NCBI RefSeq assembly: GCF_000012305.1
Contig: NC_007204.1
Coordinates: 186,001-250,000, forward strand
DNA length: 64,000 nucleotides
DNA from: Psychrobacter arcticus 273-4
GTDB taxonomy: Bacteria; Pseudomonadota; Gammaproteobacteria; Pseudomonadales; Moraxellaceae
Direction of reading: 5' to 3'
Both the position numbers and the translations under genes were made by a program. The notes under the pieces are model-generated. The model worked only from the letters and a program-made list of their open reading frames with translations, was not told the origin of the DNA and did no database searches. The first letter of the stretch is position 1. Each line of letters opens with the position of its first letter. Positions 1 to 43,297 of the stretch are shown here, one piece after another.

Positions 1-1045
1 TGGTACGCCAACGCCATTTGAAACCACTGTTGCCGATAAAATTTGCGAAATCGTCCCAAGTGTTGAGATGATTCGTATGACCAGCTCGGGTACGGAAGCG
101 ACGATGAGTGCGATTCGTTTGGCACGTGGTTATACTCAGCGTGACAAAATCGTCAAGTTTGAAGGCTGCTACCATGGCCATTCAGACAGTCTGTTAGTAA
201 AAGCGGGCTCAGGCATGCTTGATATTGGTGAGCCAACCTCAAAAGGCGTGCCAGCAGATTTTGCTAAGCATACCATTACGATTCCTTATAATGACTCGCA
301 AGCGATTAAAGACTGCTTTGAGAAATGGGGTGAGGAAATCGCCTGCGTAATTTTGGAGCCGATCGCTGGCAACATGAATATGGTCATTCCAAGCCAAGAA
401 TTTCATGATACCTTGCGCGAGCAGTGTACTGCCAATAACTCGGTATTGATTTTTGATGAAGTCATGACGGGCTTTCGTGTTGGACTGGGCGGTGCGCAAG
501 CGCATTTCGGTATCGACCCTGACTTGACTTGCTTTGGTAAAATCATCGGTGCGGGCTTGCCAGTTGGCGCTTTTGGTGGCAAAAAAGAGGTCATGTCTTG
601 TATCGCCCCTCTTGGCGGCGTCTACCAAGCGGGTACGTTATCCGGTAATCCGCTAGCAATGCGTGCTGGTATCGCCATGTTTGAAGACTTAACCGCAGAG
701 GGTTTTTATGATGAGCTAGCCGTAAAGGTTGATCGTTTGGTTGATGGCTTTCAAGCGGCTGCTGACAAACATGGTATCAATCTACGTACCAATAAGCTTG
801 GTGGTATGTTTGGTATGTTCTTCGTGACAGACGGTGATACAGCAGTACCACAAAATTTCGATGAAGTGACCGAGTGCGATATGGAAGTGTTTAATACTTT
901 CTTCCACGGTATGCTTGATCGGGGTATCTATCTGGCACCCTCTGCATATGAAGCAGGTTTTATGTCTATTAAGCATAGCGATGAAGATATTGATACCTCT
1001 ATCAAAGCGGCTGACGAGATATTTGCAGAAATGGCAAAAGCGTAA
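1..1045 (+). CDS. hemL: Glutamate-1-semialdehyde 2,1-aminomutase, 3' part
   Basis: PLP enzyme converting glutamate-1-semialdehyde to 5-aminolevulinate, the second step of C5 tetrapyrrole synthesis; HemA for the preceding step is at 18616-19995. The reading frame is open from base 2, so the gene starts upstream of the window and about 350 codons are visible. Recognisable parts are the [15 protein letters not shown] phosphate-binding region, FDEVMTGFR, the PLP-lysine segment CFGKIIGAG (Lys codon 539-541) and [11 protein letters not shown], all in family order. The gene ends in TAA and is followed within 30 bp by a strong terminator. Identity is secure; only the N-terminus is missing. Confidence 0.96.
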
Positions 1046-1069
1046 CACAGCAGTGTTAGGCGGTTAAAA

Positions 1070-1107
1070 AAACAGCATAGCAACAAGATTACTATGCTGG
1101 TTTTTTT
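1070..1107 (+). terminator. Rho-independent terminator of hemL
   Basis: Perfect 8-bp stem CAGCATAG/CTATGCTG (1073-1080 with 1092-1099) followed by seven T. It lies 25 bp after the hemL stop and 27 bp before a 138-bp repeat. Confidence 0.85.
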
Positions 1108-1133
1108 ATTCTTAGATTAATAATAAAAGCAGT

Positions 1134-1271
1134 TATAGTCGGTGAAAAGTAATATCGATACAACACGTACTGCTGGTGCAAATTTTTCTTGCTTGCTGTG
1201 CCTACGCAGACAGATGCTGCAAAAAATTTACACCAGCAATACTGTAGCGACTTTAAAGTATTTCAACTATA
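1134..1271 (+). repeat. 138-bp dispersed repeat, copy 1 (MITE-like)
   Basis: First of twelve full-length copies, all exactly 138 bp from TATAGT to ACTATA. 'Plus' here means the end beginning TATAGTCGGTGAAAAG comes first; the other end, read inward, begins TATAGTTGAAATACTTTAAA. Inside lies a long inverted repeat (arms GTACTGCTGGTGCAAATTTTT and its near-complement) around a GC-rich core with CTGTGCCTACGCAGACAG. The outer ends are only partly complementary to each other. This copy sits between hemL and ppx, just after the hemL terminator. Its left arm (CTGCTGG) is one of the variants. It encodes no plausible protein; short open frames recur in it simply because the DNA is repeated. Confidence 0.93.
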
Positions 1272-1479
1272 TCCTGTTTTTAGCCAGGGTTTGGCTATTG
1301 TATTCGCTTACTTGCCAGCGTTTGGCATAAATGTTTTAATGGAAAAACTTACTATCATTTATATGATTGTTATCGTTTTTATATATGGTAATCCTGATTT
1401 CAACCCAACGTATTTTCTATTTTAAAAGCCTAAACCCTTTTAATTGTTTTTTTCATCTGACACGGTAACGACCTCGCTT

Positions 1480-3006
1480 ATGCCCAAAGACAACCTAAAA
1501 AACCCACCACTCGCAGAAGATGAACTGATGGCAGCCATTGATATTGGTTCCAACAGTTTTCATTTAGCCATTGCTCGCCTTGATCATGGTGAGGTGCGAA
1601 AAGTGGTGTCTATGTCTGAAAAAGTGCAGTTAGCCGCAGGACTGGATGAACATAATATTTTAGGCGGAGCAGCGGAGCAGCGTGGTTTAGATTGTCTTAG
1701 CCGCTTTGTAGCGCGTCTAGATTCGGTGCCTCCTGAGCGTATTCGTATTGTTGCGACCAACGCCTTACGCCAAGCCAAAAACGCCAATGATTTTATCAGC
1801 CGTGCCAATAAAATCTTACCCAAGCCCATCGAGATTATTGCGGGACGAGAAGAAGCGCGTTTGATTTATCTAGGCGTCTCGCATACCAATGCCAGTAGTG
1901 ACAAGCGTTTGGTTATTGATATCGGTGGCGGCTCAACAGAGTTTATTATTGGTCAAGAGTTTGATCCGCTGTTGACCGAGAGCTTACAGATGGGCTGTGT
2001 TGCCTTTACGCAAAAATATTTTGCTGATGGACAAATTACCAAGGAAGCTTTTAATAACGCCATATCGGCTGCGCGTAAAGAAGTGCTGGCGATTAATGGT
2101 CGCTACCAAAAAATGGGCTGGAGCAGCACCATTGGATCGAGTGGTACGATTAAAGCGGTACGTAATGTTTTGGTCTCTAAAGGCTGGGCAGATGAGCAAG
2201 AACGTATCACTTATAAAGGGGTCAAAAAGTTAGAGAAATTGCTGCTTAAAATTGGCAACGTCGATGACATGGATTTAGAAGGCGTCAAAGAGCACCGTAA
2301 AGCGGTATTCCCAGCAGGCGTTGCGGTATTACAAGCAGTCATGAAAGTACTGGCCGTTGATACTATTACTTATTCGGATGGCGCGCTACGCGAAGGTGTC
2401 ATGTATGACATGCTCGGACGCTTTGCCAGTGAAGACGTACGTGACCGCAGTGTATTGGCACTGATTAAGCGCTATTCAGGCGATAAAAATCAGGCTAAGC
2501 AAGTAGTCAAAACCAGTCGTCACCTTTTTGAACAAGTACAAACAAAACTTGGACTCAGTACGGAAGATGGCGATTTACTCAGGCGAGCAGCATTCTTACA
2601 TGAGATAGGGCTGGCAATAGCTCATAGTAGCTATCATAAACACAGTGCGTACTTGATGGAACATTCTGACATTCCAGGGTTTTCACAAGTAGACCAAAAG
2701 CGTATGGCACAGCTGATGTTGAATCATCGCCGTAAACTAAAAGCAGATATGTTAGAGCAGACGTGCGTAATTGGCGGCGATCAGCTAGTTTATCTCTGCC
2801 TGCTACTTCGTTTAGCAGTACTGGCACATCACAGTCGTAGTGATTATGAGTTGCCGACATTAGCATTAAAAGTAGACGATGGCAATCATTGGCAAATCAT
2901 GGTTGGTGATAGCAGCGAGTACTATGCTTTCTTATTTTCTGACTTGCAGACTGAAATAGAACAATTTGCCAAATGGGGCATCAAGCTAAGCGTCATTGAG
3001 GTTTAA
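1480..3006 (+). CDS. ppx: Ppx/GppA family exopolyphosphatase
   Basis: Hydrolyses terminal phosphates of polyphosphate and/or pppGpp. The sugar-kinase/Hsp70-like fold is shown by AAIDIGSNSFHLAIARLDHG near the N-terminus and the phosphate-binding motif VIDIGGGSTEFIIG, followed by a C-terminal HD-like helical region with HEIGLAIAHSSYHKHSAYL. About 508 residues from the ATG at 1480, close to E. coli Ppx (513). A TTG at 1444 and an ATG at 1528 are also in frame and no start has a clear ribosome-binding site, so the start is uncertain by a dozen residues either way. Length favours Ppx over GppA, but the sequence alone does not separate the two activities. Confidence 0.9.
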   Translation: MPKDNLKNPPLAEDELMAAIDIGSNSFHLAIARLDHGEVRKVVSMSEKVQLAAGLDEHNILGGAAEQRGLDCLSRFVARLDSVPPERIRIVATNALRQAKNANDFISRANKILPKPIEIIAGREEARLIYLGVSHTNASSDKRLVIDIGGGSTEFIIGQEFDPLLTESLQMGCVAFTQKYFADGQITKEAFNNAISAARKEVLAINGRYQKMGWSSTIGSSGTIKAVRNVLVSKGWADEQERITYKGVKKLEKLLLKIGNVDDMDLEGVKEHRKAVFPAGVAVLQAVMKVLAVDTITYSDGALREGVMYDMLGRFASEDVRDRSVLALIKRYSGDKNQAKQVVKTSRHLFEQVQTKLGLSTEDGDLLRRAAFLHEIGLAIAHSSYHKHSAYLMEHSDIPGFSQVDQKRMAQLMLNHRRKLKADMLEQTCVIGGDQLVYLCLLLRLAVLAHHSRSDYELPTLALKVDDGNHWQIMVGDSSEYYAFLFSDLQTEIEQFAKWGIKLSVIEV

Positions 3007-3234
3007 TTTTTTATCAGCTAAGACCGTTAATAGATTGGTTGATTAATGCGGTTAGAAATAACGTAACAAAAGCGGTGTTGTCGGTAATGTTATGGCATAT
3101 AAGATGTGCTATTATAGTTTTTATTGAGTTTACAACTGTACTTTCATTATCCTAAAACCGATAACGATGCCATTATTAAATATAACCATATTGAACATAA
3201 CTCTATTAAGTATAACTAGGAAAGGGAAGCGTCT

Positions 3235-4038
3235 ATGAGTACCGTCTGGGATAGCGTTCAGCTTGCACGGCATGCCAAACGTCCATTGTTTATGGACTAT
3301 GTGAATCAGCTGTTTACCGAATTTGATGAATTGCATGGCGACCGTGCTTATGCTGATGACAAAGCAATCCTTGGTGGACTCGCACGCCTAAACGGTATGC
3401 CGGTGATGGTCGTTGGTCAACACCGTGGTCGCAGCACACGCGAGCGTATTGAGCATAACTTCGGTATGGCAAATCCTGAGGGCTATCGAAAAATTATTCG
3501 TTTGGTCAAAATGGCTGAGCGCTTTAATATTCCGGTCATGACCTTTGTCGACACCCAAGGTGCCTATCCGGGTATTGGCGCTGAAGAGCGTGGGCAGGCG
3601 CAAGCCATTGCCGAAAGCATCGCTGTGTTTTCAAGCCTCAAAGTACCTATTATCGTCACCATTATTGGTGAAGGTGGCTCAGGTGGGGCATTGGCGATTG
3701 GTGTTGGTGATAAAGTAAATATGCTGCAAAATAGCATTTATTCGGTCATCTCTCCTGAAGGCTGTGCTTCCATACTATGGAAAACTGCTGAAAAAGCGCA
3801 AGATGCCAGTGAAGCCTTAAAATTAAATGCTATCAATCTGTATCACATGGGCTTGATTGATGCAGTTATTGACGAAGGTGAGGGTGCTCATATTCAGCCA
3901 CAGCCAGTGATGACGGCATTAAAAGCCCTGTTGGTTGAGCAATTGGATGAGCTAAAAGATTTGGATACTCATACGCGTTGTGAGCAGCGTTATGAGAAGT
4001 TCAAATCTTTTAACTCAGAAGTCATGTTGCCTTGCTAG
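3235..4038 (+). CDS. accA: Acetyl-CoA carboxylase carboxyltransferase subunit alpha
   Basis: Alpha half of the carboxyltransferase that moves CO2 from biotin to acetyl-CoA to give malonyl-CoA for fatty-acid synthesis. Crotonase-like signatures include [18 protein letters not shown]-equivalent [18 protein letters not shown], and the oxyanion glycine run [12 protein letters not shown], then [13 protein letters not shown]. At 267 residues it is shorter than E. coli AccA (319), because the N-terminal helical arm and part of the C-terminus are reduced. The ATG at 3235 follows a purine-rich AGGAAAGGGAAG stretch, a good ribosome-binding site. It is transcribed alone with its own terminator. Confidence 0.96.
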
Positions 4039-4107
4039 TATGTTCCATTGCTAAATAGTTGATAATCAGCTTTTAGCACTAAAGGCTTACGCTTAATGTT
4101 AAAATAA

Positions 4108-4136
4108 AAACGTGTCATTTTATGGCGCGTTTTTTT
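4108..4136 (+). terminator. Terminator of accA
   Basis: Seven-bp stem AAACGTG/CGCGTTT with one G-T pair (4108-4114 with 4126-4132), 11-nt loop, then a T run. It is 18 bp upstream of a 138-bp repeat. Confidence 0.7.
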
Positions 4137-4153
4137 GTATCAATTAATTTATA

Positions 4154-4291
4154 TATAGTTGAAATACTTTAAAGTCGCTACCGTATTGCTGGTGTAAATT
4201 TTTTGCAGCCTCTGTCTGCGTAGGCACAGCAAGCAATAAAAATTTGCACCAGTAATACGTGTTGTATCGATATTACTTTTCACCGACTATA
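4154..4291 (-). repeat. 138-bp dispersed repeat, copy 2
   Basis: Full-length copy in reverse orientation between accA and tilS, ending 22 bp before the tilS start. Arms read GTATTGCTGG and CCAGTAATAC, which pair throughout with one G-U. It may place the tilS promoter inside or next to the repeat. Confidence 0.93.
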
Positions 4292-4312
4292 CCATCTAAT
4301 TAGATAAGGTCA

Positions 4313-5893
4313 ATGATGAGCAGCAGTGCAATCCTACCATATCCAATTGACCCAATAGCTCAGCTGCCGATTGATAGTCAGCTAGCACAAGCATTATTGA
4401 GCAGTCTCGCTGACTATGGCGAGCAATTGCATGGTCGCCGAATTTGGCTGGCGTGTAGTGGTGGGCGTGATTCATTGGCACTGGCAGCGCTGTGTGTACA
4501 GCTATACCAGCAAAGTAGGCTGCCATTTTTACCGCAGCTATTGCATGTCAATCATGGTTTGCAAGCGGATAGTGATATTTGGGCACAGCATGTCGCTGAG
4601 TGGGCAAAGCGTCAGAAAATACCTTGCACTATCTTGCAGGCGCAAGTAAATGGCCATGATGAGCAAGCAGCACGGCAAGCGCGTTATGACGTGATGCGCA
4701 CGCAACTAAATCAAGATGATGTATTACTATTAGCTCATCATGCTGATGACCAAGCAGAAACAGTATTGATGCGGCTGGTTCAAGGGGCTGGGTTGAATGG
4801 TCTGACGGGTATGCAGCCGTGGCGTGTACAAACGCAGGGCGTCCATCGCATTGTATTATGGCGTCCTTGGCTTACCATACAGCGTGCCAGTATTAGCACC
4901 TATGCTCAGCGTTTAAAGTTATCTTATATCGATGATCCAACCAATGACGGCGGTGATAATGTCCGTAGTGGACTGCGCCGTGACATCATGCCAGTATTGG
5001 CGAAATATAATCCCAACGTTATTGATAATATTGCTCGGAGTGCACAGTTATTAAGCGATGCACAATTAATCGTCAGTGCGCAAGCATCACAAGATATGCA
5101 GCAGACGGCTATTGCCTCGCTACAATTGTCATCTGCCCAACGAGTGCTAGATATCAATGAGGTAAAGCAATTACCACTTTATCGCCAGCGACAACTATTA
5201 CATTATTGGTTAGCTCAAGATGAGCCATTACCGCCTGCTAAGCAGCTTGTTGATGATGTATGGCGCTTAAGCCAGCGTCATGACCATGATCATCAAACGG
5301 CGCTTTTTTGGCAAGGTCGCAAACAGTCCTATACCATTCGCCGCTACCGTGAGCAGCTTTATCGGCTTAGTAATGACTGGCTAGCATGGCTTAAACTACC
5401 GTTATCTGAGCAAACGCTATCGTTATCTGAGCCTCTTTTACTGGCTAATAATTTACCTGAGCATCAGCCTATACCAATCATTTTGCGTAGTGATCAAAAT
5501 GTTACTTGGCAAGTGCAGACGATACCAAGTGAGCTATTGCCCCTATTAGACGATATAGCATTAGAGGCAACATTAAAGCCAATGCTAAAAACAACACTAA
5601 AAACAACACCATTACATCGCAGCACGCGTATCCAAACCGCACTAGCGACACGACCGCAATCGGGAAAAAAACTCTACCAAACATTGGGTATCCCATCATG
5701 GTTACGTGAAAGCTTGGTAATGGTAAGTATTGTTAATAGCAATTTGGACAATGCATCTTCAATAGAGTTACCTCTCTTATTGTTGTCACCTTTTGAGACT
5801 TGGGTGTTAGGCTCTGAGACGCTTAGTACTGATAGTAGTATTGAAAATAAGCCCTCTATCGCAAGCCAATTAATACCAAACAAAGCAGTTTAA
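4313..5893 (+). CDS. tilS: tRNA(Ile)-lysidine synthase
   Basis: Makes lysidine at C34 of tRNA-Ile2 so that it reads AUA instead of AUG; an essential cytoplasmic tRNA modification. The N-type ATP pyrophosphatase P-loop is SGGRDS at residues 49-54, followed by HVNHGLQADSDIWA and AHHADDQAETVLMRLVQG. The C-terminal half is more diverged and ends with the TilS substrate-binding domain (RPQSGKKLYQTLGIPSWLRESL). At 526 residues it is longer than E. coli TilS (432); the extra length is a linker rich in L, T and K (residues about 350-440). Two ATGs in tandem (4313, 4316) are possible starts. Stand-alone gene behind a 138-bp repeat. Confidence 0.94.
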   Translation: MMSSSAILPYPIDPIAQLPIDSQLAQALLSSLADYGEQLHGRRIWLACSGGRDSLALAALCVQLYQQSRLPFLPQLLHVNHGLQADSDIWAQHVAEWAKRQKIPCTILQAQVNGHDEQAARQARYDVMRTQLNQDDVLLLAHHADDQAETVLMRLVQGAGLNGLTGMQPWRVQTQGVHRIVLWRPWLTIQRASISTYAQRLKLSYIDDPTNDGGDNVRSGLRRDIMPVLAKYNPNVIDNIARSAQLLSDAQLIVSAQASQDMQQTAIASLQLSSAQRVLDINEVKQLPLYRQRQLLHYWLAQDEPLPPAKQLVDDVWRLSQRHDHDHQTALFWQGRKQSYTIRRYREQLYRLSNDWLAWLKLPLSEQTLSLSEPLLLANNLPEHQPIPIILRSDQNVTWQVQTIPSELLPLLDDIALEATLKPMLKTTLKTTPLHRSTRIQTALATRPQSGKKLYQTLGIPSWLRESLVMVSIVNSNLDNASSIELPLLLLSPFETWVLGSETLSTDSSIENKPSIASQLIPNKAV

Positions 5894-6081
5894 GTACCAA
5901 ACAGAGCAGTTTAAGTACCAGATAAATCATGTGCAATATTGTGATTAGCATAAGCTGAACCCGACGGTTGCTTTTCAGAATTTCCCAAACGGTGCTAGTA
6001 GCAGTATGGTAAACTGAGTGTCATTTTAATTATCATTATGTTAGTTTGAATACCTTTAAATTTGGTCAGTAGGAGACATGT

Positions 6082-39069: not shown

Positions 39070-39211
39070 GTGTTTGGGATTTGGGTTTAAAAGTAGGGGA
39101 GCAATTCCCGCGGTAATCCCCCCCAATAAAGAATAATATTATTGATATTTGTTACTGATTTATTGCTGTTATACTATAGTATTCTTTGTTTTAATTACTT
39201 TAGAGGTATTT

Positions 39212-39685
39212 ATGGGCAGCTATATTGATTCAAATTTGATTACTAATGAACGTGTTATTAAGGAAGCCCAAGTATCATGGTGGTCGCAATGGCCATTTTT
39301 TGTGATTGGTGGTCTTTTTCTTCTCTCTGGGATGGGTGCTAGCCTTGCTCCTAATGAAGATGGCGGTGCTGGTGTCATTTTATTTATAGCAGTAAGTTTC
39401 ATTGTTTTTGCCATAATTAGGGTTATTAGTACTGAGCTTGCATTAACTACTAAGCGTGTAATCGCTAAAACTGGTTTTATTAGACGTAATACAATTGAAC
39501 TACGATTGGAGAAGGTCGAAGGCTTTGTAGTCAATCAAAGTATATTTGGTCGGATTTTCAATTATGGGTCAGTTGTAGTTTCGGGAACTGGTGGCATCAA
39601 AACTCCTATCCCCTTCATTTATAACCCAGCTGAGTTTCGTATGGTAGTCAATGAATTCTTAGAAAACCCTTCTCAATTTGATTAA
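39212..39685 (+). CDS. PH-domain (YdbS-like) membrane protein
   Basis: 157 residues. Two adjacent transmembrane helices (WPFFVIGGLFLLSGMGASL and GAGVILFIAVSFIVFAIIRVI) precede a bacterial PH domain with the standard TTKRVIAKTGFIRRNTIELRLEKVEGF and FGRIFNYGSVVVSGTGG. Start set at the ATG at 39212, 8 bp after AGAGG. First gene of the accessory stretch, converging on the HNH-Ltp gene. Function of such bPH2 proteins is not established. Confidence 0.88.
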   Translation: MGSYIDSNLITNERVIKEAQVSWWSQWPFFVIGGLFLLSGMGASLAPNEDGGAGVILFIAVSFIVFAIIRVISTELALTTKRVIAKTGFIRRNTIELRLEKVEGFVVNQSIFGRIFNYGSVVVSGTGGIKTPIPFIYNPAEFRMVVNEFLENPSQFD

Positions 39686-39705
39686 CCAACACAATAAAAT
39701 AAGAG

Positions 39706-39746
39706 AAATTAAAGCCACAACTGTCATCTTGTCGTGACTTTAATTT
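39706..39746. terminator. Bidirectional terminator, PH gene/HNH-Ltp gene
   Basis: AAATTAAAGCCAC pairs with GTGACTTTAATTT (one mismatch), A-rich before and T-rich after. It lies just outside the HNH-Ltp stop codon. Confidence 0.8.
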
Positions 39747-41497
39747 TTAGAGGTAAGGCTAGCTACGAACAAGCACGCCTGTTCTGCTCCGTAAGTTGCT
39801 TCACTTAAACTATAGTCATCACATTCATGAAGTTGTTCAATAAGGCCTTTACATGAATAACCTGAGTACTCAAGGTAATCTTTTGCTGACTTTACAGCCT
39901 GCTCTTTCCAATCAATGTTTAGACTATCTACTGCAACTGTAGCATCAGACACAACGTAATCATCGCATTCATGAAGCTGCTCAATAAGACCTTTACGTGA
40001 ATAACCTGAGTACTCAATGTAGTCTTTTGCTGACTTCACAGCCTGCTCTTTCCAATCAATGTTTAGACTATCTACTGCAACTGTAGCATCAGACACAACG
40101 TAATCATCGCATTCATGAAGCTGCTCAATAAGACCTTTACGTGAATAACCTGAGTACTCAATGTAGTCTTTTGCTGACTTCACAGCCTGCTCTTTCCAAT
40201 CAATGTTTAGACTATCTACTGCAACTGTAGCATCAGACACAACGTAATCATCACATTCATGAAGCTGCTCAATAAGACCTTTACGTGAATAACCTGAGTA
40301 CTCAATGTAGTCTTTTGCCGATCTTAGGGCATTAGCTTGTGGTCTGGTCAGATTAGTTCCTTGTTTAGTCATCGCATTTCTAGTTCTACCATCTTCAAAA
40401 GTTGAACTTTGTAGGCCTGTAGTCGGTGTACTGGCTTTAGGTGGTCGAGTCATATCTAATTTTCCTGAGTCAGTCGGTGTGCTGGCTTTAGGTGGCCAAG
40501 TCGTATCTAATTTTCTTGAGTCAGTCAGTGCAGGATTGGGTATAACATCAGCACTATATATTTTTGAACCTTTCGAGCGATTACATTTCCAGCATAATGT
40601 CTGCAAATTACTTTCACAGGTTACTCCTCCTTTTGAAAGAGGGATAATATGATCAATTTCTAGTAAAAGATTAGCTTCATCTGAAGTCGAAAGATTACAA
40701 ATCTTACAGGCATAACTATCTCTCTCTTTTATTTCTTCTCTTAGTTTCGCAGTCATAAGAGCCCTTTGACCTGCGACGCTGTTCTTAACTTTTAACAAAT
40801 TGGCTAAGTAGCCAATAAATCTCTCTAGTCTGTCTAAATTCAATTCTAAGGCAAAGTTAGACTTACTATTGCCACCAGCAGAAGCATATCTAAAGGTATA
40901 AACAGGAAAATATAAATTAGATAAACTAATTTTTTTAAAACCCAATTCTGTATTAACCCTATCTCGATAATGTCTCAAGATGTAGGGTGAGAGAGAAGTA
41001 CTGATACTTGAAACAATCGCTTCTCTCTCATTTTCTAATAGATACTTTCCCTGTTCTACAGCAGAAAAATTATTTAACACCTCTTCAAACTGCTCTAACG
41101 TCTCTTTGTTAGGACTTATATTGAAATATTTACATAAATATTTATAAGGTTGATTATCAGCACTTTTCACAATAGAAGCTGAGCAATTGTGTGTCCATCG
41201 ATTGTCACTTGATTCAGTAGCCCAAGTACGCCTCTTCATATTATAACGACTAGCATCAGATAACAGCCCTTCACCATAGTCAGTAGCCTCAGCATAAGTA
41301 TAAGACAACTTCAAATGCTCAATATGCTCATTAAGTTCGTTACACTCGTCAATGTGTTGCTGAACTCTGGCTTTCACAGCAAGAAATTTAGTCCCTTTAA
41401 AATAAGAGTCTATGACCAGTGGATAAACTACATGGCGAATAAAAGCTATTAGCAAGAAGAACACAATCAAAGACAAAATTATAGATTCAGTAGACAA
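39740..41497 (-). CDS. Membrane-anchored HNH endonuclease with Ltp-type repeats
   Basis: 585 residues. Parts in order: one transmembrane helix (residues about 6-28, IILSLIVFFLLIAFIRHVV); a 230-residue region I do not recognise; an HNH domain at about 258-311 (CKIC...EIDHIIPLSKGG...NLQTLCWKCN), with four zinc-type cysteines and the DH...N...N core; a Pro/Thr linker with a doubled KLDxTxPPKASTPT unit; and four 48-residue repeats from about 393 to the end. The repeats (AKDYIEYSGYSRKGLIEQL then AVDSLNIDWKEQAV) match the Ltp repeat of superinfection-exclusion lipoproteins. It begins at TTG with GGAG 7 bp upstream. There is no lipobox. Role unknown; DNA-entry blocking or cutting is inference. Confidence 0.85.
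   Translation of the reverse strand: MSTESIILSLIVFFLLIAFIRHVVYPLVIDSYFKGTKFLAVKARVQQHIDECNELNEHIEHLKLSYTYAEATDYGEGLLSDASRYNMKRRTWATESSDNRWTHNCSASIVKSADNQPYKYLCKYFNISPNKETLEQFEEVLNNFSAVEQGKYLLENEREAIVSSISTSLSPYILRHYRDRVNTELGFKKISLSNLYFPVYTFRYASAGGNSKSNFALELNLDRLERFIGYLANLLKVKNSVAGQRALMTAKLREEIKERDSYACKICNLSTSDEANLLLEIDHIIPLSKGGVTCESNLQTLCWKCNRSKGSKIYSADVIPNPALTDSRKLDTTWPPKASTPTDSGKLDMTRPPKASTPTTGLQSSTFEDGRTRNAMTKQGTNLTRPQANALRSAKDYIEYSGYSRKGLIEQLHECDDYVVSDATVAVDSLNIDWKEQAVKSAKDYIEYSGYSRKGLIEQLHECDDYVVSDATVAVDSLNIDWKEQAVKSAKDYIEYSGYSRKGLIEQLHECDDYVVSDATVAVDSLNIDWKEQAVKSAKDYLEYSGYSCKGLIEQLHECDDYSLSEATYGAEQACLFVASLTSKN
39783..40330 (-). repeat. 144-bp tandem repeat array encoding the Ltp repeats
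   Basis: Four units with a period of exactly 144 bp (landmark GAATAACCTGAGTACTCA at 39855, 39999, 40143 and 40287). The two central units differ by a single base; the one encoding the protein's C-terminus has diverged. Period is a multiple of three, so unit number can change without a frameshift. Confidence 0.95.
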
Positions 41498-41709
41498 AGG
41501 CTAACTCCAACAACCAGAAACAAGGGGATTTAGATAGTAAGAAAAAAGCAAAGGACAACAAGAGTCGAAAAAAAGCACTTTAAGGCATCTAAAAAATATT
41601 AGCAACAAGAAGAGAAAGAACACAGAAGAAAGCAGCGAGTAACCAACAATAAGGAGACTTTCCTAAAAAGTGTGTAACTGCTTATAATCCACTAACCGGA
41701 GAATAAGCA
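41498..41709. other. Purine-rich gap upstream of the HNH-Ltp gene
   Basis: 212 bp, strongly A/G-rich on the plus strand (pyrimidine-rich toward the minus-strand gene). Near 41656-41680, TCCTAAAAAGTGTGTAACTGC resembles an IS256-type element end. No clear promoter for the HNH-Ltp gene was found. Confidence 0.35.
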
Positions 41710-42085
41710 ATGACTACTCAATCTGACATTAAAAAACATATAGACCAAACCATTCCTGCCTCGGTACAAGCTCAAAGCCAAGAGCAACGTATTAAGGAGC
41801 TTGAACGCGAGAATAAAGAGCTCAAGCAAGCGAATGAAATCATACGTAAGGCGGCGGCTTTTTTAGCTCAGGCGGAGCTCGACCACTAACTAAAACAATG
41901 CTTCAATTTATCGATAATTATAAAGATAATTACGGGATCGAGCCAATCTGTCGAGTACTACCGATTGCCCCATCAACCTATGGATATGTGTCACCTTTTG
42001 AGTTTGAAAGACGGTATTATGATAATCTTAATCGGTTAGGCCTGGTGGCCTAACTTAAACAAACAGTCTCCGATATAGTCGGGGC
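41710..42085 (+). mobile_element. Internally deleted IS3-family element
   Basis: Two short frames. 41710-41889 (59 residues) ends [33 protein letters not shown], the C-terminal leucine zipper of an IS3 OrfA. 41898-42053 (51 residues) starts MLQFIDNYKDNYGIEPICRVLPIAPSTYG, an OrfB N-terminus, and then continues directly as YVSPFEFERRYYDNLNRLGLVA, an OrfB C-terminus. The DDE catalytic core is missing between them. A CCGATATAGTCGGGGCGGTTCA end follows. Both orfs were shortened with frames preserved; the element cannot move on its own. Confidence 0.8.
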
Positions 42086-42800: not shown

Positions 42801-43297
42801 GGGGCTGTCCTAGGGTAATCATCCCAAGCATAAGACACTTAATCAGTAGAGAGCATCCCAAATTCTGTGTAACTGCCATTTAGCTTGTAGCAATGCTTAC
42901 TGATACAGTCATCAAACATAATCATAAAGCGATTTAAAGCAGACATCTATAGTTGCAATACTCTAAAGTCGCTACCGTATTGCTGGTGTAAATTTTTTGC
43001 AGCCTCTGTCTGCGTAGGCACAGCAAGCAAGAAAAATTTGCACCAGTAGTAGGTGTTGTATCGATATTACTTTTCACCGACTATAGTTACGAATTGGCAT
43101 CGACCACCTCGACGATGCCAGATAAATCACCTTGAATGCTGCCTGATTAGAAGGGAAACTTTACGCTTAGTCACTGCTGTCCGAATCACACTATTTAAAG
43201 ACTCGATAGCATTGGTGGTATAAATCGCTTTTCTAATGTCTTTAGGATAATTAAAGAACACCGTCAAGCTCTTGCAGTTATTACGCCAAGACTTGAT
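42801..43297 (-). pseudogene. IS256-family transposase 3' relic, interrupted by a 138-bp repeat
   Basis: Minus strand reads FIKSWRNNCKSLTVFFNYP, KDIRKAIYTTNAIESLNSVIR, a one-base deletion in a T run, then QAAFKVIYLASSRWSMPIRN. The 138-bp repeat (42948-43085) follows, and the frame resumes as SALNRFMIMFDDCISKHCYKLNG. This is the C-terminal third of an IS256 (Mutator-like) transposase, ending at the terminal repeat GGGGCTGTCCTAGGG. It is dead: truncated, frameshifted and interrupted. Confidence 0.88.
42948..43085 (-). repeat. 138-bp dispersed repeat, copy 8, inside the IS256 relic
   Basis: Full-length reverse copy lying within transposase coding sequence. Removing it but leaving one TA joins CGT AAC to TAG ATG TCT GCT, restoring the spacing RN-(W)-x-x-ALNRF expected of IS256 transposases. 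One end has TATAGTTGCAATAC instead of TATAGTTGAAATAC. Confidence 0.95.

Follow-up and report, generated by a model that had tools for sequence, protein, structure and literature searches.

What does a protein do in which a membrane anchor, a nuclease and the repeats of a phage superinfection-exclusion protein are joined in one chain? This question is raised by a gene of Psychrobacter arcticus 273-4 located in the window analyzed here, a stretch of 64,000 nucleotides of contig NC_007204.1. The gene occupies positions 39740-41497 of the window on the minus strand and is an intact open reading frame (ORF) of 585 amino acids (aa) with TTG as the start codon. A sequence-only reading had described its product as one chain with a transmembrane helix, an HNH core and four Ltp repeats. 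This layout, which is no chance match, was borne out by hydropathy, by Pfam and by the AlphaFold model with the Foldseek searches. The best PHROGs matches of the protein are two families annotated as superinfection exclusion, phrog_15667 (3.8e-72) and phrog_4980 (1.7e-54). We consider the chances about even that this is an inner-membrane-anchored anti-phage nuclease carried by mobile DNA, a superinfection-exclusion or defence protein whose Ltp repeats sense the tape measure protein.

Architecture and predicted topology of the fusion protein

The AlphaFold model, built with an alignment of 65 sequences, has a mean predicted local distance difference test (pLDDT) score of 83. It starts with a long N-terminal helix, followed by the middle domain, the HNH domain, a disordered linker (residues 318-379) and the Ltp helices, arranged as a chain. 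The HNH nuclease domain comprises residues 259-316 (40550-40723, minus strand, as for all parts of the gene) and matches PF01844 with an E-value of 2e-11 and 44.3 bits against a cut-off of 21.4. It is a zinc-type domain of the D-H...N...N kind with two CxxC pairs (C264/C267 and C302/C305). The residues D282, H283, N297 and N306 and the four cysteines are invariant across 57 aligned members of the family, and the HNH domains found by Foldseek include those of McrA, Gme HNH and Cas9.

The Ltp part begins behind a disordered spacer rich in Pro, Thr and Ser (residues 317-384; 40346-40549; pLDDT below 50 for residues 318-379). The spacer contains a short internal repeat, which is present in more copies in a homologue encoded by the plasmid pA18BP2. 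Four matches to PF07553 were found in the window protein, with a whole-protein E-value of 2.4e-40 and 136.9 bits against a cut-off of 23.2. In the register of the DNA copies, the repeats correspond to residues 393-440 (40178-40321), 441-488 (40034-40177), 489-536 (39890-40033) and 537-584 (39746-39889), the last of them being divergent and terminal. Three repeats are nearly identical in DNA, with 1-3 differences per 144 bp; therefore, the array has grown recently by duplication. In another Psychrobacter (L148/L150), the assembly breaks within the repeats. The assignment of the repeats to Ltp holds for their structure as well. Among PDB chains, phmmer recovered 4eqq (6.4e-5), the structure of Ltp, a superinfection-exclusion lipoprotein of the Streptococcus thermophilus phage TP-J34 (PMC3952083). 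In the Foldseek ranking of PDB structures, 4eqq_A and 4eqq_B come first (TM-scores by target of 0.86 and 0.89), followed by RecX proteins and HNH enzymes. The Ltp part of the window protein is strongly acidic, with a net charge of -18 over 201 residues, and Ltp modules have a net negative charge in each of the 13 proteins counted, which in some of them is small. Acidic residues of Ltp have been reported to be important for binding the tape measure protein (PMC3952083). Thus, the window protein resembles TP-J34 Ltp in the fold and family of the repeats, in their acidity and in the flexible spacer ahead of them.

The N-terminal transmembrane helix spans about residues 6-30 (41408-41482) according to hydropathy and charge count, and the corresponding helix of the model spans residues 2-34. 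It is the single transmembrane segment of the window protein, with the hydropathy maximum at residues 6-24. Basic residues follow the helix, so that an N-out/C-in orientation is predicted, in which both the HNH domain and the Ltp repeats would be on the cytoplasmic side. Across the relatives of the protein, the charge distribution predicts C-in for 47 and C-out for 14; 13 are tied, and five have no scored transmembrane segment. Thus, 47 of the 61 relatives with a decided orientation are C-in. Stand-alone Ltp relatives, unlike the core family described below, look C-out by the same kind of prediction. A signature of two cysteines in the last repeat was considered as a periplasmic marker; it is not decisive, occurring in stand-alone Ltp proteins and in the plasmid fusion and being absent from two other fusions.

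Between the helix and the HNH domain lies a middle domain (residues 35-258; 40724-41395), which is conserved across phyla in the alignment. A Pfam search of the window protein assigned no family to it, and Foldseek found no fold relative below an E-value of 0.1 in BFVD or PDB. Upstream of the TTG codon, a Shine-Dalgarno-like GGAG (41505-41508), probably the ribosome-binding site, ends 7 nucleotides 5' of the start, and two related fusions likewise have TTG starts and comparable upstream motifs.

A core family in prophage lysogeny modules

A genome-wide search revealed 139 relatives of the window protein, of which 80 were kept. Nearly all align to residues 1-316 or so only, and most stop right after the HNH domain. 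Judging by these alignments, the first 316 or so residues, comprising the transmembrane helix, the middle domain and the HNH domain, constitute a widespread core family whose members usually stand alone. The same family includes stand-alone prophage and plasmid proteins annotated with an "HNH endonuclease signature motif" (WP_050512947, WP_272163768 and WP_244993444), which are of a type without Ltp repeats and for which no described function was found. Other tails can be noted, such as a SHOCT domain in one relative (L015). A large and mostly Clostridia clade of core proteins (L062-L084 and L168) has an additional N-terminal region of about 280 aa.

The commonest recognized families in the immediate neighbourhood of the core genes are CI-type regulators, ImmA-type metalloproteases and integrases. 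Their enrichment was judged by distance bins within the same loci. In 67 loci of the main clade, CI-type repressors have a density of 1.5 per 10 kb up to 1 kb away from the core gene and of 0-0.22 per 10 kb at distances of more than 3 kb. Each of the five ImmA genes is no more than 1 kb from the core gene; the same is true of 12 of the 18 integrases, and a single one of the 18 lies beyond 2 kb. The genes of these three kinds therefore cluster within 2 kb of the core and are nearly gone beyond 3 kb. A repressor or an integrase was found within 3 kb in 29 of 70 main-clade loci. Individual gene orders, with identities assigned by eye and backed by the family tallies, are repressor-ImmA-core-integrase (L165), the same with one additional gene ahead of the integrase (L166) and repressor-core-recombinase (L027). 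The ltp gene of TP-J34 is also located in the lysogeny module of its phage (PMC3952083); thus, the core in many genomes occupies the very module in which a classical exclusion gene lies. The core is also present on IMG/VR contigs, in a prophage of Mycobacterium abscessus and on plasmids of Pseudomonas, Vagococcus, Rhodococcus and Arthrobacter. No consistent housekeeping context was observed across the genomes whose neighbouring genes were surveyed.

The fusion with Ltp repeats is much rarer. It was found in 4 of 199 Moraxellaceae genomes, all of them Psychrobacter and including the genome of the window, and on the mobilizable Psychrobacter plasmid pA18BP2. The plasmid protein is the closest relative of the window protein (77.6% identity in the core); it is annotated as an "Ltp family lipoprotein", and its annotated start omits the transmembrane helix. 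In the other Psychrobacter fusions, the core is 59-62% identical to that of the window, and the repeats are present in varying number. A fifth Psychrobacter genome, the only such case among the 199, has a stand-alone core, whose gene lies between nrdA-like and nrdB-like genes (L149:6829-7764). No fusion was found outside Psychrobacter; among 368 other gammaproteobacterial genomes, Ltp occurs in one, as a stand-alone protein, and for Bacillota-type genomes, fusions were sought only among the core relatives from the genome search and the IMG/VR contigs. In a Clostridia metagenome-assembled genome (L025), a separate Ltp gene adjoins the core gene, independently of the Psychrobacter fusion. Stand-alone Ltp genes, encoding a transmembrane segment and acidic repeats, are present in Moraxellaceae genomes and on small plasmids, including those of Psychrobacter. 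A prophage on IMG/VR contig 2731957697 encodes a protein with a zinc ribbon, a transmembrane segment and two Ltp repeats (L169:3174-3872), and a tape-measure-like tail gene is located a few kb away.

One fusion is part of a defence island. In another Psychrobacter (L148), it directly follows a Zorya type I operon (41-5991) of zorA (truncated by the edge of the locus), zorB, zorC and zorD, with matches of 6.6e-240 for zorC and E=0 for zorD. In having an HNH domain in a membrane-associated defence context, the fusion also recalls ZorE of Zorya type II. The match of the window protein to ZorE is nevertheless weak and covers the HNH stretch only (E-value of 0.079; 11.8 bits against a cut-off of 600), and no ZorA or ZorB gene was found near the window gene.

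Proposed function and its alternatives

A close known parallel is SNIPE (PD-lambda-1, Nature 2026), a membrane-bound protein composed of a transmembrane segment, DUF4041 and a GIY-YIG nuclease, which contacts the tape measure protein and cleaves the DNA of a phage while it is being injected (PMC13190303). Both are widespread single-gene systems with an N-terminal anchor, a middle domain and a nuclease domain, and the N-out/C-in topology measured for SNIPE is the one predicted here. The window protein is, however, no member of SNIPE, because DUF4041 is absent and HNH replaces GIY-YIG; in addition, Ltp repeats follow at the C-terminus. DUF4041 (PF13250) was found neither by Pfam nor by a profile-profile comparison of the window protein with 12 DUF4041/SNIPE proteins (hhalign probability of 0.1%), and the middle domain was rejected as a homologue of DUF4041. 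One scan of viral contigs revealed no relatives of SNIPE. Three proteins of genus g15 of the same taxonomic family (L088, L089 and L090) match DUF4041 and, unlike SNIPE, are only about 320-340 aa long and lack a GIY-YIG nuclease. SNIPE demonstrates that the principle of a membrane-tethered nuclease works.

When the properties of SNIPE and Ltp are combined, the window protein can therefore most simply be read as a membrane-tethered nuclease that would be brought to the site of injection by its Ltp repeats. The single N-terminal helix would hold the protein at the inner membrane, with the middle domain, the HNH domain and the repeats predicted to be in the cytoplasm. As in SNIPE, the tether might keep the nuclease away from the chromosome. 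Upon injection by a long-tailed phage, the acidic repeats could bind the emerging tape measure protein at the inner membrane, as suggested by TP-J34 Ltp, and the flexible spacer would allow the HNH domain to reach and cut the entering DNA. The core without Ltp repeats would then serve temperate phages as a general exclusion nuclease, to which the Psychrobacter fusion would have added a second recognition module of variable repeat number. The earlier proposal of a membrane nuclease recognizing an entering phage component thus fits the architecture and the context best, with the qualification that the function of Ltp is not simply transferable. The patchy occurrence of the protein in the 199 Moraxellaceae genomes (four fusions and one stand-alone core), together with the mobilizable plasmid, also speaks for this reading.

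Several observations weigh against it. The side of the membrane is the chief tension in the proposed mechanism: TP-J34 Ltp works outside the cytoplasmic membrane (PMC3952083), whereas the repeats of the fusion come after an HNH core and, by prediction, lie inside, so that the function of Ltp cannot simply be carried over to the fusion. The middle domain lacks a functionally characterized relative. No repressor or integrase is located within 3 kb in 41 of the 70 main-clade loci with a stand-alone core, and just one fusion adjoins a recognized defence system. In addition, the fusion of Psychrobacter 5A.1 (L147:6200-6465) is interrupted by an in-frame stop where an Ltp repeat has a tryptophan, leaving one further repeat untranslated; the stop in this array and the uncertain start of another fusion (L148) suggest that some fusions might do without the Ltp part.

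The stop in the array of 5A.1 is also consistent with a different view, in which the Ltp part alone is active, and nuclease and Ltp are independent exclusion functions joined by chance in a mobile slot without mechanistic coupling. Both the core and ltp do occupy the same slot of lysogeny modules (PMC3952083), and Psychrobacter plasmids also carry Ltp genes of their own. We consider such a chance union unlikely, since several divergent Psychrobacter copies have kept the fusion with repeats always present, and a free Ltp would be ill placed on the predicted cytoplasmic side. Competence involves membrane nucleases acting on incoming DNA. The protein might accordingly cut foreign DNA in general at the membrane, arriving by plasmids, conjugation or natural transformation, with the Ltp repeats as a scaffold. 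The plasmid location of the closest relative and of the cores in the four genera named above would agree with such a role. Much of the core family lies in prophage lysogeny modules, however, and no role other than phage exclusion is known for the Ltp module (PMC3952083), which makes this broader activity rather improbable.

HNH proteins are common in phages, and the HNH domain here resembles phage HNH families; with a core gene that is often near integrases, an ordinary homing or lysogeny-maintenance nuclease serving mobility or packaging, with incidental anchor and repeats and no part in exclusion, could be imagined. A homing enzyme would need neither a membrane anchor nor repeats that bind the tape measure protein. 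The conservation of the anchor and the middle domain across phyla, and the fact that in the loci read the core is neither embedded in an intron nor adjoining a terminase gene, render this quite improbable. The host-toxicity of SNIPE without its transmembrane segment, which is caused by the nuclease (PMC13190303), indicates that a membrane nuclease could in principle turn on the host. In an abortive-infection effector of this kind, the Ltp repeats would sense infection and release the HNH domain onto host DNA, and the cell would die. No antitoxin or sensor partner was seen, and SNIPE, whose layout is comparable, confers direct protection by cleavage of phage DNA; we regard cell suicide as highly improbable.

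Going beyond the single protein, we tentatively propose, at somewhat less than even chances, that the core is an undescribed, phylum-spanning family of superinfection-exclusion nucleases of prophages, which invented the principle of SNIPE independently, and that Psychrobacter added to it an Ltp tape-measure module, flipped to the cytoplasmic face. The Ltp and HNH modules and the principle of a membrane nuclease are already known. The sequence-only reading knew of no described system with this layout; SNIPE follows the same principle with unrelated domains. The HNH-Ltp combination, the middle domain and a nuclease family of lysogeny modules were not found described in the literature searched, which is weak evidence, the search having covered few subscription papers and no preprints. 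If the proposal is true, the cutting of phage DNA at its point of entry arose at least twice, from unrelated domains, and temperate phages carry entry nucleases in the slot also used by classical exclusion genes. With the fusion, it can readily be tested whether Ltp repeats recognize the tape measure protein from the cytoplasmic side and whether a recognition module can determine against which phages a membrane nuclease acts. Duplication of the repeats at the DNA level provides a natural series of recognition-module lengths.

Probable plasmid origin of the locus, and its neighbouring genes

In the window, the fusion gene is flanked by a gene of the VTT/DedA type and by a convergent gene (39149-39685, plus strand) encoding a small membrane protein of 178 aa with a bPH_2 domain (PF03703, 5e-13). 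The fusion and the bPH gene form one block shared with pA18BP2 (plasmid positions 1381-3671; window positions 39127-41444), with 78-80% identity over the two longest pieces. The bPH gene is rare, being found in 4 of 105 Psychrobacter genomes. Given this block and the rarity and plasmid residence of the bPH gene, the window copy can most simply be regarded as a plasmid-derived segment, located in the variable region downstream of purL. Two relatives have sequence matching its far side (about 42849-42928) no more than about 0.7 kb from the end of purL; in the window, this distance is about 3.8 kb. Two short ORFs upstream of the fusion gene (41710-42053) were guessed from the sequence to be a remnant of an IS3-type transposase, which Pfam did not confirm.

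A functional pairing of the fusion with the bPH gene was also considered. It is weakened by the presence of the bPH gene between rep and mobC, at the same spot, on related plasmids without the fusion; therefore, the pair reflects a shared plasmid origin. The bPH gene is a standing resident of Psychrobacter plasmids of the rep_cluster_1403/MOBP type (L176, L188 and L189), where it lies in the rep/mobC interval beside a variable cargo slot. Relatives of it are found in E. coli and Klebsiella as well, on cryptic plasmids of 2 kb.
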